Shown: positions 46,734 through 61,548 of the stretch, in pieces
Layout: each line of letters starts with the position of its first letter
Numbering within the stretch: position 1 is the stretch's first letter
From: Parapedobacter koreensis
GTDB taxonomy: Bacteria; Bacteroidota; Bacteroidia; Sphingobacteriales; Sphingobacteriaceae
NCBI RefSeq assembly: GCF_900109365.1
Contig: NZ_FNZR01000001.1
Location: 248,001 to 312,000, forward strand
Reading direction: 5' to 3'
DNA length: 64,000 nucleotides
Translations under genes and position numbers: made by a program
The notes under the pieces: generated by a model
Databases searched by the model: none
The model's input: only the letters and a program-made list of their open reading frames with translations
Told to the model about the DNA's origin: nothing

Positions 46734-47693
46734 CTACAACACCCCCTCAATTGTACCCCTATTTTCGCGATATGCCTTCGGCGATATGCCCACCATTCTT
46801 TTGAAGTATTTGCCAAAAAAAGATTGGTCACTGAAATTCAATAGGTCTGCCACCTGTGCGATGGTCAATGACGGTGTGGCCAATAGAATCTTTGCTTCAT
46901 TGATCACAAAGGTCTCAATCACTTTGGTAGCTGTCACGCCTCCCAGTTCTTTCACCACTTCAGATAAATATTTTGGCGTCACAAATAACCGATCTGCATA
47001 GTGGGTGAGTTCTCGATGTTGCCTAAAGTATTTTTTAGCCAATCGGTAGAAGCTTAGAAACAGCTGTTTTTTGCGGGAAGACGTATTGGGTAGAGGCTCG
47101 GCATATGTGGTGGCCAATGCTCCCAGTTCATACATGAATACGCTGAACATTCCCATCAAGAGATCCTTGCCGAACGTCCGTTCCTCCACGTGGTTCAAAT
47201 AATACGCCAAGCTATTGATGACATGCCTGAGGTGCGCAGCCTCTTCCTTCGCGAGGCTCCACATCGGTTTAAACTCCGAAGTAAAGTAATATTGGACATA
47301 ATCAAAAAAATACTCCGGTATATTCAGTTTAATAGGCAGATCTGCACTAAAGGCCACCAATTGGATGACTGCCGTGCTTTTGATATGCGTCACGGATTTG
47401 GAAGCGTCCGGCAGTGCAATGATGACATCATTTTCCCGGAATGTAAATTGCTCCAAATCGATTTGCAATGTCGTCTCCCCTTCCAAAAGAAGCGCTACAC
47501 AAAAGATATCCGACCGCGTTTCCAACGAATATATCGCCTCTTTGAGATAGGGTGATTGCTTCGTATGGTCAAAGGTAGCTACTGCGATGTCATGCTTGCG
47601 GATACTATCCACGATATAATGACGTATATCCTGAAAGCAGTCATTCAACCAGTGATCCGTCTTAGGGGCTTTCGCCAATGCAGCATCACTCAT
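46734..47693 (-). CDS. AraC-family transcriptional regulator
   Basis: A 319-residue regulator from the ATG at 47693 (MSDAALAKAPKTDHW); an upstream in-frame start would lie deeper inside the preceding gene. The N-terminal part (about 30-150) looks like a cupin-type sensor; the C-terminal 100 residues have two helix-turn-helix units, with YADRLFVTPKYLSEVVKELGG and LTIAQVADLLNFSDQSFFGKYFKRMVGISPKAYREN as in AraC proteins. It overlaps the fatty-acid-hydroxylase gene by 8 bp and is the last gene of the lipid island, so it may regulate that locus (inference). Confidence 0.9.
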   Translation of the reverse strand: MSDAALAKAPKTDHWLNDCFQDIRHYIVDSIRKHDIAVATFDHTKQSPYLKEAIYSLETRSDIFCVALLLEGETTLQIDLEQFTFRENDVIIALPDASKSVTHIKSTAVIQLVAFSADLPIKLNIPEYFFDYVQYYFTSEFKPMWSLAKEEAAHLRHVINSLAYYLNHVEERTFGKDLLMGMFSVFMYELGALATTYAEPLPNTSSRKKQLFLSFYRLAKKYFRQHRELTHYADRLFVTPKYLSEVVKELGGVTATKVIETFVINEAKILLATPSLTIAQVADLLNFSDQSFFGKYFKRMVGISPKAYRENRGTIEGVL

Positions 47694-48324
47694 CAGCCGC
47701 TCCTTTCTGTTTAAAACCCGTTCCGAAAATACCATCCCAAAATGCCGAACTCACGCCAAAGCCTTTCTCGGGATCGGAATAGTGATGCAACATGTGGTGC
47801 TGTTTAATCTTTTTCCAAATCCCACCCCTGAAATTGGCATGGTGGATCGCATAATGGGTCATATCATAGAAGAGGTATCCCAACATGAATCCGGGGAAGA
47901 ATGCATTCATCACATAAACACTGAAAAACAACCGGAAAATGAAATAAATGACAATCGCCATCGGAATACTTGCCGATGGTGGCATTACCAGCCGTAGCCG
48001 GTCTTTTGGATAGTCATGGTGTACACCATGAAAAATGAAATGGATGCGTTCCATAAACTTGCCTTTGGGTTCGAAATGGAAGACAAAACGATGGAGCAAA
48101 TACTCGGAGATGGTCCATACTGACAGCCCCAGCAGAAAATAACCAATAAAATTTAATATTGGCATATCCTCCGGGCCTAACGCCTTCCATGAAAAGTATC
48201 CCACTACTGGAAGGTAAATAAACAATGGTACACTGAAGTGTACTTTGGTCAGCGACTCCAGGAAATCACTTTTGAACATCCGGGTCGACTCCGAACTGTT
48301 TGAAACGAAATTCCGCTTTGCCAT
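47686..48324 (-). CDS. Fatty acid hydroxylase / sterol desaturase-family membrane enzyme
   Basis: A 212-residue integral membrane di-iron enzyme. The histidine clusters of the family are all present: H78 and H83 in HRFVFH, H99/H102/H103 in HGVHHD, H157/H161/H162 in HYAIHH and H176-H181 in HHMLHH. Hydrophobic segments lie near 32-50, 58-78 and 118-150. The closest functional analogy is fatty acid 2-hydroxylase (FA2H/Scs7 type), which hydroxylates the acyl chain of ceramide. In this sphingolipid locus, 2-hydroxylation of the ceramide acyl chain is the natural prediction. It ends overlapping the AraC gene. Confidence 0.85.
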   Translation of the reverse strand: MAKRNFVSNSSESTRMFKSDFLESLTKVHFSVPLFIYLPVVGYFSWKALGPEDMPILNFIGYFLLGLSVWTISEYLLHRFVFHFEPKGKFMERIHFIFHGVHHDYPKDRLRLVMPPSASIPMAIVIYFIFRLFFSVYVMNAFFPGFMLGYLFYDMTHYAIHHANFRGGIWKKIKQHHMLHHYSDPEKGFGVSSAFWDGIFGTGFKQKGAADE

Positions 48325-48328
48325 AGCT

Positions 48329-59228: not shown

Positions 59229-60343
59229 ATTGCCTCTTCAAAAATCCGATAACGTTTATACAATTTGCCGTTTATTTGTTCAATCGCGTGATTCATCAGG
59301 TAGTTGTGTTCGAGCATCCATGAACACTCGGCCCTTTCTATCGGCGTTCCATCGCTGTTGCGGATAAGCCGTCCATACAGGCATGCTTCAATACCCAATT
59401 TGCGGTAACCAGCTATCACCCCGAGCATCAGCACGCGGACGGATGTAATCTTTTTCTTCTGGAAGAGCAATTTGAAAATACCGGTAGGCAACAGTCGTCC
59501 ATTTTTGATGCCTATCTGTATCTGGTTGATATTGGGTAGCCCCAGGGCAAATCCCACAATCTGCCCTTCCTTTTCGGCCACGATGCAAAACCGGGGATCC
59601 AAAATCAGCTTCATGCTTTTGGCCGCATGGTCAAATTCCTCAACAGTCATGGGCACAAAGCCCAGGTTTTTGTCCCAAGCCTTATTATACACTTCACGGA
59701 TCTTTTCTACTTCGCCTTTGAAGTCCTTCAGGTTGATTTGCCTGATGACGATGCCCTTGTTCTTCAGGCGTTCTTCCATCCGGTCTATAAACTGTGCTAC
59801 CCGTGTATTTGCTGTCTCACGTTCCACCATATACGCTAGCAAATCGGTCATCTTGACCAAACCGCTGTTTACCAGCAATGCCTCGTAATAAGGCTTATTG
59901 TGTGGCATCATGACCATGGGGGGGCTATCAAAACCTTCAACAAGCAATCCACACGTATCGTTCGTAGATAGGTTTACTGGACCAATAAGGCGTTCTGCCC
60001 CTCTTTCTTTCAGCCAATTTTTCGCAGCTGTCAAGAGGATGTTTGCAGCTTCTTGGTTATCTTCGCTATCAAAAAAACCAAAAAAACCATCTTTGTTACC
60101 CGTGAATGCATTATGGTTGGTATTGTATATGGCCGCTACCCGTCCTTTGATTTGCTCGCCATCCACCACTAAAAATAATTGGCTGCTTGAATGATCATAA
60201 AACGGATTTTTCCCCGGCCATAACAACTCCTCCTGAGCCACGTACAACTCAGGCACATAGTTTGGGTCGTCACGATACAATCTATGCGGATAGTCTATAA
60301 ATTGTTTTAATTGTGATTTATTCTTGATGGTCACTAACTGCAT
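59225..60343 (-). CDS. GNAT-fold acyltransferase, probable bacterial ceramide synthase
   Basis: A 372-residue soluble protein with a C-terminal acetyltransferase-like fold (about 180-330, with FCIVAEKEGQIVGFALGLPN and LMLGVIAGYRKLGIEACLYGRL). In Caulobacter the N-acyltransferase bCerS, encoded near serine palmitoyltransferase and the reductase, adds the acyl chain to the sphingoid base. The family, the position between serine palmitoyltransferase and the SDR, and coupling to serine palmitoyltransferase by a 1-bp TAATG overlap support the same role here. The acyl donor (acyl-CoA or acyl-ACP) cannot be read from the sequence. Confidence 0.8.
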   Translation of the reverse strand: MQLVTIKNKSQLKQFIDYPHRLYRDDPNYVPELYVAQEELLWPGKNPFYDHSSSQLFLVVDGEQIKGRVAAIYNTNHNAFTGNKDGFFGFFDSEDNQEAANILLTAAKNWLKERGAERLIGPVNLSTNDTCGLLVEGFDSPPMVMMPHNKPYYEALLVNSGLVKMTDLLAYMVERETANTRVAQFIDRMEERLKNKGIVIRQINLKDFKGEVEKIREVYNKAWDKNLGFVPMTVEEFDHAAKSMKLILDPRFCIVAEKEGQIVGFALGLPNINQIQIGIKNGRLLPTGIFKLLFQKKKITSVRVLMLGVIAGYRKLGIEACLYGRLIRNSDGTPIERAECSWMLEHNYLMNHAIEQINGKLYKRYRIFEEAI

Positions 60344-61548
60344 TATGACACCGCTTTAATCAATTCAATATTCAAAGAACAATACGCTTTTACCAGTTTG
60401 TCAATCGCTTCATCAATTTGTTGGAAGGTATGTGTCGCCATGAGCGAAAACCGGATCAATGACTCATGAGGCGGCACTGCCGGGGAAACTACGGGGTTGA
60501 CGAAGACACCCATTTCCTGTAAAAGCATGGTCACACGAAATGTCTTCTCATTGTCCCGGATGTAAATCGGTAAAATCGGGCTTTCCGTTTTTCCGAGATC
60601 GAACCCATGTTCCACAAGCAACTTCTTCGCATAGTTGGTGTTTTGCCAAAGCCGTTCAATGTGTTCAGGTTCCGACCGGATGATCTGCAACGCCGCCAGT
60701 GTACTTGCTGCAGCGCCAGGCGTCATGCTTGCGCTGAACATGAGCGACCGAGCACGGTGCTTCAAGTACTCAATAGTTGCCGCATCGCTGGCGATAAAAC
60801 CACCCAACGAGGCTAATGATTTGCTAAACGTACCCATTACAACATCCACCTTGTCCGTGAGCCCGAAGTGATCCGCCGTGCCAGCCCCCTGATAGCCGAT
60901 CACACCCAAGCTATGCGCATCATCCACCATAATGGCAGCATCATAGGTGTCGGCTAACTTTTGCAGCTCGGGAAGTTTTACGATATCGCCTTCCATGCTG
61001 AAAATGCCATCCGTAGCAATGAGTTTGACCGCATCTTCCGGCAATTGGGCCAGTTTGCGTTCCAGATCAAACATGTCATTATGGGCATATTTGATGACCT
61101 TTGAAAATGAAAGCCGACTGCCGTCGATGATGGAAGCGTGATTGCGCTCGTCTAATAGGATGTAATCATTGCGCCCGGTAAGGCACGATAGTGCACCCAA
61201 ATTGGCCTGAAACCCCGTACTAAACAACAAGGCGGCCTCTTTTCCTGTATAATCGGCCAAGTGGTGCTCAAGCTCTTCGTGAATATCGAGCGTACCATTC
61301 AAAAATCGCGAGCCGGCACAGCCTGTACCATATTTGGCTGTCGCTTTTCTGGCAGCTTCAATGATCGTTGGATGGTTCGTAAGGCCGAGGTAAGAGTTCG
61401 ACCCAAACATTAGAACTTTTTGGCCATCAATCACAACCTCCGTATCTTGGCCAGATTGAATGGCTCTAAAATAAGCGTATAGGCCACTGTCCTTAATGAG
61501 TTGTGCATCTTTAAAAGCTGCTACCCGCTCGTGTAGTCTTCTATTCAT
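60343..61548 (-). CDS. spt: Serine palmitoyltransferase
   Basis: SPT condenses L-serine with a fatty acyl thioester to give 3-ketodihydrosphingosine, the first step of sphingolipid synthesis. The 401-residue alpha-oxoamine synthase has the residues expected from the Sphingomonas enzyme at matching spacing: H137 that stacks on PLP (ERNHAS), D209 and H212 in VDDAHS, and the PLP lysine K243 in [13 protein letters not shown]. The N terminus [11 protein letters not shown]-like ([13 protein letters not shown]) and the length match the soluble Sphingobacterium-type SPT rather than KBL or BioF. It is the first gene of the lipid island. Confidence 0.93.

Follow-up and report, generated by a model that had tools for sequence, protein, structure and literature searches.

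A conserved fourteen-gene Parapedobacter operon predicted to build inositol phosphoceramide from CDP-inositol

How might members of the Bacteroidota place phosphoinositol on ceramide without an AUR1-type synthase? The locus described here, at 46734–61548 of the window (the whole 64,000-nucleotide stretch of Parapedobacter koreensis DNA that was analyzed), makes this question directly testable with a few purified proteins; it gathers predicted genes from the first step of ceramide synthesis to a putative outer-membrane protein, in bacteria for which type strains exist. Fourteen minus-strand ORFs (Table 1) are separated by 13 junctions, 12 of which overlap or span no more than 29 bp; from the first transcribed junction to the last, the spacings are -1, -4, 27, 153, 22, 29, -1, 10, -4, -17, -8, 4, and -50 bp, calculated with a TTG start for the DUF4833 gene, for which an ATG lies at 48886. 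These coordinates bear out the initial annotation, which had described fourteen closely spaced or overlapping genes and one 153-bp gap. The gap separates the MIPS and DUF5686 genes (56712..56864, minus strand), and of the partial terminator once proposed for it the stable hairpin stands (minimum free energy -55.2 kcal/mol for 159 nt, z -3.57); the hairpin has no T-run and does not appear in the terminator scan list. At the equivalent position in P. luteus, a hairpin of different sequence was read by eye. The island is bordered on the Spt side by a 511-bp gap after Tpx, containing a 14-pair terminator-like hairpin (62038–62004), and on the AraC side by a 230-bp gap before an HD/PycTM gene.

Table 1. 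Genes of the operon in order of transcription, with families assigned by Pfam and NCBIfam profile searches of the ORF translations unless stated otherwise.
Feature	Coordinates	Strand	Evidence
Serine palmitoyltransferase (Spt)	60343..61548	-	NCBIfam NF047600, 736.5 bits (cut-off 640); PLP motif TFSK
GNAT-type acyltransferase, presumed bacterial ceramide synthase	59225..60343	-	Pfam Acetyltransf_1, E 0.00085, just under cut-off
SDR/epimerase-type protein, presumed ceramide reductase	58227..59228	-	PF01370, E 7e-26; TGxxGxxG and YGRSK motifs
myo-Inositol-3-phosphate synthase (MIPS)	56865..58199	-	PF07994, E 1e-99; PF01658
DUF5686 protein	54132..56711	-	PF18939, E 9e-50; PF13715 (CarboxypepD_reg)
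NTP transferase, presumed inositol-phosphate cytidylyltransferase	53405..54109	-	PF12804/PF00483
ATP-grasp enzyme, constant cassette member	52491..53375	-	Predicted structure and Foldseek
CDP-alcohol phosphotransferase, presumed CDP-inositol:ceramide transferase	51550..52491	-	PF01066, E 5.5e-11, over cut-off
LPG_synthase_TM/HpnL-like membrane protein, presumed flippase	50496..51539	-	PF03706, E 1.6e-21; TIGR03476 under its cut-off
HAD phosphatase (IA type)	49774..50499	-	PF00702, E 2.6e-17; nearest solved PH1655
PfkB kinase, presumed ATP-dependent myo-inositol kinase	48894..49790	-	Nearest solved structure TM0415, E 2e-22
DUF4833, probably secreted all-beta protein	48329..48886	-	PF16117, E 8e-46; model pLDDT 76
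Fatty acid hydroxylase (FA2H-like)	47686..48324	-	PF04116, E 2.6e-19
AraC-family regulator	46734..47735	-	PF12833, E 1.2e-18

Its recurrence marks the arrangement as more than chance: P. luteus (locus L097) and P. tibetensis (L098) repeat the full 14-gene order, and each of the 17 uncut Runella, Dyadobacter, and Rhabdobacter loci, which lack MIPS and AraC, has 11 or 12 of the genes. The head-group cassette (including NTP transferase, ATP-grasp enzyme, CDP-alcohol transferase, and HAD) is linked to Spt–GNAT–SDR in 3/3 Parapedobacter and 18/18 Runella/Dyadobacter/Rhabdobacter loci, and this union of the ceramide and head-group halves in one operon is new. The proposal that a conserved operon unites the ceramide genes with the inositol genes therefore holds; far from never being linked, they lie together in these 18/18 loci and, with another cassette, in 23/23 loci of other sampled Sphingobacteriaceae, which were picked by their MIPS gene and carry a similar ceramide–MIPS frame with a BT_1522-type cassette instead. 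The suggested gene-order comparison across Sphingobacteriaceae showed that linkage is not the rule in the family: the ATP-grasp gene occurs in 33 of 301 genomes, with SPT nearby (13–20 kb looked at) in the 3 Parapedobacter and not beside the cassette in the other 30. Six genomes of the class sample, our own included, carry the ATP-grasp gene, all among the 24/295 over the SPT cut-off; four of the six represent one family, so this co-occurrence is partly phylogeny. In 52/52 cassette genomes, SPT matched with an E of 1e-100 or better.

Spt belongs to the CFB type, and a GNAT homologue shares a stretch with it in every locus of three sets (23/23, 18/18, and 12/12). From their fold families and positions, the GNAT and SDR proteins are presumed to be the bCerS and CerR, respectively, of a ceramide route like that of Caulobacter; simple hydropathy gave no hydrophobic N-terminal segment for the SDR. 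These three proteins would produce (dihydro)ceramide in the cytoplasm.

Inositol phosphate could be supplied by MIPS, the single PF01658 match in the P. koreensis genome, and PfkB is likely an inositol kinase. Equivalents of the TM0415 inositol contacts D11, N78, Q141, and R145 are kept in 23/23 PfkB ORFs, all of which have Cys in place of the PPi arginine (R232). PfkB thus resembles TM0415 and the T. kodakarensis myo-inositol 3-kinase (PMC5931981) in fold and inositol-contact residues, but it has a GCGD motif rather than the RXGRGD signature of pyrophosphate-dependent kinases. MIPS lies within the fetched stretch in 28/32 family and 33/45 Bacteroidales-type loci, several of which are cut contigs. 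Four Sphingobacteriaceae cassette genomes have only a distant MIPS, and 8/15 Runella/Dyadobacter-type genomes gave no MIPS match, so inositol stays a predicted head group; all eight retain PfkB in the cluster.

Within the cassette, inositol-phosphate specificity of the NTP transferase is presumed from weak scores, its match to the archaeal IPCT/DIPPS model NF041135 reaching 30 bits against a cut-off of 580. The ATP-grasp enzyme, fused to the NTP transferase in two loci, is a constant and previously unreported member, and the main text of Heaver et al. (2022; PMC9246714) contains no mention of "ATP-grasp". Neither Pfam nor NCBIfam matched it at E 0.001; Foldseek assigned the ATP-grasp fold to its AlphaFold model (pLDDT 86), the top matches being ligases such as ArgX (TM 0.72/0.75), and profile matches were to ITPK4 (E 0.0012) and ArgX (E 0.0017). 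The enzyme shares its fold with LysX/ArgX/RimK ligases, and its fold and D-x-N metal motif with ITPK kinases, but passes no family cut-off for either: it scores 15.4 bits against the ITPK family PF05770 (cut-off 23). With E allowed up to 1, PF05770 is hit by 7/49 members (best 0.013), and in single members unrelated families attain lower E. In profile alignments, its metal motif is D-x-N, not E-x-N (DLNDWPSF, versus VDLNYLPSF in ITPK4 and NELNDVPEF in ArgX); D259 and N261 are invariant in 49 aligned rows, and the proteins have their own near-invariant N-terminal motif, FSPNHxxND.

The closest solved structure to the CDP-alcohol transferase is AF2299 (E 9.4e-11), and it is also near DIPPS. The archaeal IPCT/DIPPS and AF2299-type enzymes perform CDP-inositol chemistry, which PMC9246714 also cites; here the activities would reside in separate genes, with a presumed ceramide acceptor and the motif DxxDGxxAR-x8-GxxxD-x4-D. 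The canonical DxxDGxxAR-x8-GxxxDxxxD occurs in 23/23 PIPS sequences versus 0/114 labelled cassette transferase ORFs, 107 of which have D-x4-D, six Asn or Ile for the last Asp, and one is a fragment. With the canonical spacing absent throughout and the last Asp itself absent from six, the chemistry may differ.

The NTP transferase, CDP-alcohol transferase, and HAD lie together near MIPS, the arrangement of the "alternative inositol lipid cluster" described as putative in B. vulgatus (nucleotidyltransferase, CDP-alcohol transferase, and HAD; PMC9246714). LPG-synthase-like and carboxypeptidase-reg neighbours are also common to the B. vulgatus/Prevotella cluster and our locus, which differs in adding Spt, GNAT, SDR, hydroxylase, PfkB, and DUF4833. 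Inositol lipids influence B. thetaiotaomicron fitness in mice, and the alternative pathway is present in many Bacteroidota. Heaver et al. call this pathway unconfirmed, demonstrate phosphoinositol dihydroceramide (PI-DHC) by HPLC-MS in the cluster carriers B. vulgatus and P. veroralis, and find the alternative pathway in about four times as many Prevotella species as the BT type (PMC9246714). The inositol-phosphoceramide-like product proposed in the initial annotation thus gains a head-group match to PI-DHC makers, the product itself staying a prediction, as do its 2-hydroxylation by the FA2H-type enzyme and its export by the flippase-like protein. New relative to that annotation are the match to a published putative cluster, PfkB as the likely inositol kinase, the ATP-grasp enzyme, and the absence of an IPC synthase. 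Caulobacter CpgA–D likewise provide a ceramide with a CDP-ester-activated head group from one region, but with another head group and other enzymes: CpgD makes CDP-glycerate, and ceramide is first phosphorylated by CpgB (PMC13228409).

The characterized B. thetaiotaomicron operon BT_1522–1526 also groups MIPS with the genes that provide the inositol head group of inositol phosphoceramide, but our locus has no genes for PIP synthase, a PgpA-type or BT_1525-type phosphatase, GtrA, or an AUR1-type synthase, and so lacks the pairing of AUR1/PAP2-type IPC synthase and PIP synthase that marks that operon. The B. thetaiotaomicron SPT (BT_0870) has a locus number distant from it. The BT_1522-type PAP2 protein of locus L074, used as query, matched 5/5 BT-type genomes (one its own) and 0/52 cassette genomes. 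The NCBIfam phosphoinositol dihydroceramide synthase model scored 309–343 bits in 5/5 BT-type genomes and found nothing in 51/52 cassette genomes, the other giving one 20.8-bit partial match, while the BT_1523 PIP synthase model exceeded its cut-off in 2/2 BT-type and 0/16 searched cassette genomes. P. koreensis itself showed neither a BT_1522- nor a BT_1523-type enzyme: its genome gave no NF052609 match, and its best NF052561 match (30.5 bits, cut-off 350) is the cassette transferase.

Together, the 14 genes probably form one operon for inositol phosphoceramide, a scheme in which we infer each catalytic step and the product from sequence. The NTP transferase together with the ATP-grasp enzyme would convert inositol phosphate to CDP-activated inositol, and the CDP-alcohol transferase would pass phosphoinositol from CDP-inositol straight onto ceramide, making a phosphatidylinositol intermediate and an AUR1/BT_1522-type synthase unneeded. 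The HAD may finish or trim the head group, the LPG-synthase-TM protein may flip the lipid, DUF5686 and DUF4833 may help carry it to the outer membrane, and its hydroxylation may fall to the FA2H-like enzyme; least certain are this hydroxylation, the flipping and delivery steps, and the reactions of the ATP-grasp enzyme and the HAD. The operon adds a constant enzyme missing from the published scheme, would make an IPC synthase dispensable, and predicts which proteins work in pairs. A more specific route is conceivable, though doubtful, in which the ATP-grasp enzyme acts as a bacterial kinase of inositol phosphate that solves a stereochemical problem. MIPS yields inositol 3-phosphate, direct activation of which would link the wrong inositol carbon to the lipid; the ATP-grasp enzyme might instead phosphorylate carbon 1, after which its fusion partner, the NTP transferase, would activate the new phosphate to give CDP-inositol phosphate. 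The CDP-alcohol transferase would then couple this to ceramide, and the HAD, with which it is fused in other loci, would take off the 3-phosphate. This new CDP-inositol-phosphate route would account for all five core genes and for both fusions and, if true, would yield the 1-linked lipid also produced by the BT and eukaryotic routes.

The published model (PMC9246714) has the transferase make phosphatidylinositol from CDP-inositol and diacylglycerol, with the HAD as an inositol phosphoceramide synthase replacing AUR1. HAD::transferase fusions, reported in P. veroralis (PMC9246714) and found here in loci L147 and L160, and the lack of a clear AUR1-type synthase match in cassette genomes are consistent with it. 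We nevertheless consider it unlikely: the HAD belongs to the IA type, N-acylneuraminate-9-phosphatase being among its nearest solved relatives, and hydropathy gave no membrane segment, whereas AUR1-type enzymes are PAP2 proteins (PF14378); the two-step route would also be superfluous if ceramide is the acceptor.

That enzymes of these types attach another phospho-polyol or a sugar, MIPS serving something else, appears quite improbable, even though the MIPS-less and distant-MIPS genomes and the faint resemblance of the NTP transferase to inositol cytidylyltransferases would fit; Sphingobacterium also makes ceramide phosphomannose. The frequency of MIPS in cassette stretches, the inositol site of PfkB, and PI-DHC production by cluster carriers argue for inositol. 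Finally, two independent lipid pathways might share a promoter, the cassette making an inositol glycerolipid or capsule inositol and the Spt part other ceramides. In Sphingobacterium and Olivibacter-type genomes the halves do lie apart, the Spt operon bringing along GtrA and a different CDP-alcohol transferase of its own, but the confinement of the class-sample cassettes to SPT genomes and the repeated linkage in two distant groups make this reading very unlikely.

Among the accessory proteins of the favored inositol phosphoceramide operon, DUF5686 has a hydrophobic N-terminus and a C-terminal FKFDF and may be an outer-membrane barrel-like protein, related to the BT_1527-type neighbour that Heaver et al. 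describe. AraC follows the hydroxylase in L097 and L098 and in 0 of the other 78 named loci. The hydroxylase carries the His motifs HRFVFH, HFIFH, HYAIHH, and HHMLHH, and is labelled in just 10/18 Runella/Dyadobacter/Rhabdobacter loci, which suggests that it is optional. The DUF4833 model had no PDB match under E 0.001, and DUF4833 is fused to PIP synthase in 11/23 BT-type loci.

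The initial annotation had described an island of fourteen minus-strand genes between 61548 and 46734, and this layout is borne out: the genes overlap or are separated by gaps of at most 29 bp, apart from one gap of 153 bp. The window (C7:248001-312000) belongs to a genome of 5.55 Mb in 27 contigs. A terminator in the 153-bp gap, also suggested earlier, was rejected: a stable hairpin is present and a T-run is absent. P. luteus has a hairpin of different sequence at the matching position. The gene downstream of the island, beside ppk1, joins an HD domain to a transmembrane domain resembling that of Pycsar effectors (PF18967, 121.8 bits; PADLOC PycTM); its membership of the operon is ruled out by a 230-bp gap and by the P. 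luteus copy lying beside ppk. This HD-PycTM/ppk1 pair was found again in P. luteus (L097) and locus L088, so the PycTM domain may be part of a housekeeping pair rather than a defence system. At the other edge, about 150 bp upstream of Spt are alike by eye in the window and P. luteus, with parts in P. tibetensis.

Features of the island, its edges and a related gene, in order of transcription for the island (61548 to 46734)
Feature	Coordinates	Strand	Remark
Upstream region	61600-61760		Possible regulated promoter
Spt		-	First gene
GNAT		-
SDR		-
MIPS		-
153-bp gap	56712-56864		Between MIPS and DUF5686
DUF5686		-
NTP transferase		-
ATP-grasp protein (by model)	52491-53375	-	294 aa
CDP-alcohol transferase	51550-52491	-	D-x4-D motif end
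LPG_synthase_TM		-
HAD		-
PfkB		-
DUF4833		-
FA_hydroxylase		-
AraC		-	Last gene
HD-PycTM	45289-46503		Outside the operon
Second DUF4833 gene	G000:C19:18938-19351		Own genome

The head-group half of the island is the cluster published as putative by Heaver et al. in 2022 (PMC9246714), and the pathway type itself is likewise already published, as putative. In the available text of that paper, B. vulgatus and Prevotella have genes for NTP transferase, CDP-alcohol transferase and HAD close to MIPS, with LPG-synthase and carboxypeptidase-reg genes adjoining; CDP-inositol is put forward as the intermediate, and PI-DHC is reported from B. vulgatus and P. veroralis by HPLC-MS. A review restates the scheme (PMC10191378, available text). 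The term "ATP-grasp" is absent from the main text of PMC9246714, and the literature searched (few subscription papers, supplements excluded) holds no description of the joined operon, its ATP-grasp member or the NTP transferase fusion described below.

We call a genome with the ATP-grasp gene a cassette genome. The class sample of 295 genomes has 6 of these and the family sample of 301 has 33 (own genome in both counts); of the 9 own-genus genomes listed, 3 carry the gene. Regions of at most 20 kb surrounding this gene or MIPS were compared for 32 other family carriers and 5 other class carriers; named loci are the best 80 of 564 relatives. Inositol cassettes of the B. thetaiotaomicron BT_1522-1526 kind (BT-type) were sampled from 23 of the 104 family genomes with a strong MIPS match and no ATP-grasp gene; across the family, MIPS matches were strong in 133 cases and weak in 7. 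In the gene counts, two NTP::ATP-grasp and two transferase::HAD fusions are scored as ATP-grasp and transferase only, and some genomes were fetched twice (e.g., P. luteus as L037 and L097).

The whole operon is present in all three Parapedobacter carriers. Among the best 80 of 564 relatives, all 18 Runella/Dyadobacter/Rhabdobacter loci (the Rhabdobacter lineage being Cytophagaceae) hold Spt, GNAT, SDR, DUF5686, NTP transferase, ATP-grasp and transferase genes; 17 hold LPG, HAD, PfkB and DUF4833 (one contig ends), 10 the FA-hydroxylase, and none of the 18 fetched stretches holds MIPS. NTP transferase, ATP-grasp, transferase, LPG and HAD occur in each of the 32 family loci, MIPS in 28, and Spt in just the 2 from Parapedobacter. 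Short contigs bear many of the 45 Bacteroidales-type loci, of which 42 include the transferase, 41 NTP transferase, 38 HAD, 33 MIPS and none Spt. The 20-kb stretch of genome G170 carries only NTP transferase and ATP-grasp; HAD-MIPS and a match resembling the transferase are located at other places in that genome. All 23 BT-type loci, picked by MIPS, contain Spt, GNAT and PIP synthase; the AUR1-type gene is found in 22 (one stretch cut), DUF5686 in 22, and SDR and FA-hydroxylase in 20 each. Judged by family checks on the query proteins, these BT-type labels hold: the AUR1-type query is PF14378 and matches NF052609, the phosphoinositol dihydroceramide synthase model, at E 1.8e-102 and 343 bits (below the cut-off of 480), the PIP synthase query exceeds the BT1523 model cut-off, and the PgpA and GtrA queries exceed Pfam cut-offs. 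From the contents of these locus groups, a like frame of Spt-GNAT-(SDR)-MIPS-DUF5686-hydroxylase bears either of two head-group cassettes.

Turning to descent, Parapedobacter rows grouped with Runella/Dyadobacter-type ones in first trees of Spt, GNAT and DUF5686, which also took in BT-type rows. We make no claim of whole-operon horizontal transfer from Spirosomataceae, since the Spt and GNAT trees leave the place of Parapedobacter unresolved once 12 Sphingobacterium/Olivibacter-type loci are added; the sole supported split in the enlarged GNAT tree separates 9 BT-type from 23 other rows (98/93). The MIPS tree groups Parapedobacter with Sphingobacterium-type MIPS (99/97). The 12 added SPT operons (L198-L209) all have Spt and GNAT together, and in 11 these two are followed by a protein of 222-253 aa and a GtrA-like one. 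The two 222-253-aa proteins tested (L198, L207) are PF01066 members whose motif is of a third kind, making this a third, distinct CDP-alcohol-type protein; these operons possibly represent a ceramide phosphoethanolamine route.

We propose that the cassette transfers its head group from CDP-inositol directly to ceramide, yielding inositol phosphoceramide. Ceramide phosphoinositol was reportedly described in Sphingobacterium by Naka in 2003. The AUR1-type protein of BT-type locus L074 matched 5/5 BT-type genomes, one of which is its source, and 0/52 cassette genomes, comprising 33 from the family, 5 others from the class sample and 14 from the 18 Runella/Dyadobacter/Rhabdobacter loci. NF052609 scored 309-343 bits in the five BT-type genomes; 51 of the 52 cassette genomes gave no match and one (G576) a partial match of 20.8 bits. 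The BT_1523 model, searched in two of these five BT-type genomes and 16 of the cassette genomes, exceeded its cut-off in both of the former and in none of the latter (matches ≤32.4 bits). Spt matched at E ≤1e-100 in all 57 genomes. Its family cut-off is exceeded by 24 of 295 class genomes, among them all six cassette genomes, for which the chance is ~1.5e-7 if random, the true weight being smaller since the six include the window's own genome and four members of a single family. A hydrophobic N-terminus was looked for in the SDR and is absent; a cytoplasmic SDR would place ceramide on the side where a CDP-alcohol transferase acts. Caulobacter CerR is reported to be periplasmic (PMC11087976, available text), and a sphingolipid head group activated with CDP has its precedent in Caulobacter too, where CpgD makes CDP-glycerate (PMC13228409, available text).

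Among solved structures, the closest relative of the transferase is AF2299, with DIPPS lower down. Its motif ends in D-x4-D in 107 of 114 labelled ORFs, with Asn or Ile at the last position in six and one fragment; the canonical D-x3-D end occurs in 0/114 of these ORFs, which come from loci with some genomes fetched twice, versus 23/23 PIP synthases. The last aspartate is regarded as the catalytic base in other CDP-alcohol transferase members, and with its spacing altered here, the D-x4-D subfamily may handle its acceptor differently. Neither this motif nor the absence of AUR1 in other genera is described in the literature searched, again with few subscription papers and supplements excluded.

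An alternative to direct use of CDP-inositol is a route through CDP-inositol-phosphate, in which the ATP-grasp protein would phosphorylate carbon 1 and HAD would strip the 3-phosphate to give a 1-linked lipid; the putative positions 1 and 3 are derived from the known product of MIPS, which the available text of PMC8791184 gives as well. The protein has zero Pfam or NCBIfam matches at E 0.001, and an AlphaFold model from a 49-row alignment (pLDDT 86) identifies it as a predicted ATP-grasp enzyme: all 50 Foldseek matches listed are ATP-grasp enzymes, including ArgX (3vpb_A, TM 0.72/0.75, E 7.8e-12), D-Ala ligases, LysX and RimK. Whether it is a kinase or a ligase is where fold and sequence diverge. 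The modeled fold leans to ligases, with D-Ala ligases, ArgX/LysX, RimK and other ligases among the 50 matches listed and ITPK absent from them, whereas the sequence leans slightly to an inositol-phosphate kinase. The sequence profile ranks ITPK4 (7pup, E 0.0012) and ITPK (1z2n, 0.0012) about level with ArgX (0.0017); the invariant metal motif D-x-N (DLNDWPSF) resembles the ITPK4 row (VDLNYLPSF), the ArgX row being NELNDVPEF. PF05770 (Ins134_P3_kin) is the Pfam family matched by most members (7/49, below cut-off), matches that weigh little, as unrelated families give lower E values in single members (Ribosomal_S2, 0.00074) and RimK matches three.

For inositol supply, the closest solved relative of PfkB is TM0415 (E 2e-22), which phosphorylates myo-inositol using pyrophosphate, albeit at a high Km, according to the available text of PMC5931981. 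That text names four inositol contacts, all kept in 23/23 PfkB ORFs, and Cys replaces the pyrophosphate-selecting arginine in 23/23 (loci with some genomes fetched twice); PfkB is therefore predicted to be an ATP-dependent inositol kinase. By alignment, the window protein has Phe and Gln at I76 and S89, which the same text ties to the phosphorylated position. A PF01658 match is absent from 8 of 15 Runella/Dyadobacter-type genomes; each of the eight retains PfkB among its cluster genes, so inositol salvage could replace synthesis there. Separately, a second, distant MIPS type (23-25% identity, frames of 400-430 aa; L183-L187) lies away from the cassette in Dyadobacter and Olivibacter-type genomes. 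For the proposed inositol phosphoceramide, hydroxylation, flipping and outer-membrane delivery are putative steps assigned by family alone.

Gene fusions predict which proteins act together. NTP transferase and ATP-grasp form one ORF of 517 aa (L147) or 529 aa (L149), and transferase and HAD one of 533 aa (L147) or 555 aa (L160), L147 and L160 being metagenome contigs and L149 a draft; a transferase-HAD fusion is likewise reported in P. veroralis (PMC9246714, available text). Of the 23 BT-type loci, 11 (L085-L096) have DUF4833 joined to the C-terminus of PIP synthase in one ORF, which ties the domain to inositol lipid synthesis. Its model (pLDDT 76) has zero PDB matches below E 0.001. DUF4833 occurs in 13 of 149 genomes, also in ones lacking the ATP-grasp gene, in some beside GtrA or PIPS, and the own genome carries a second copy.
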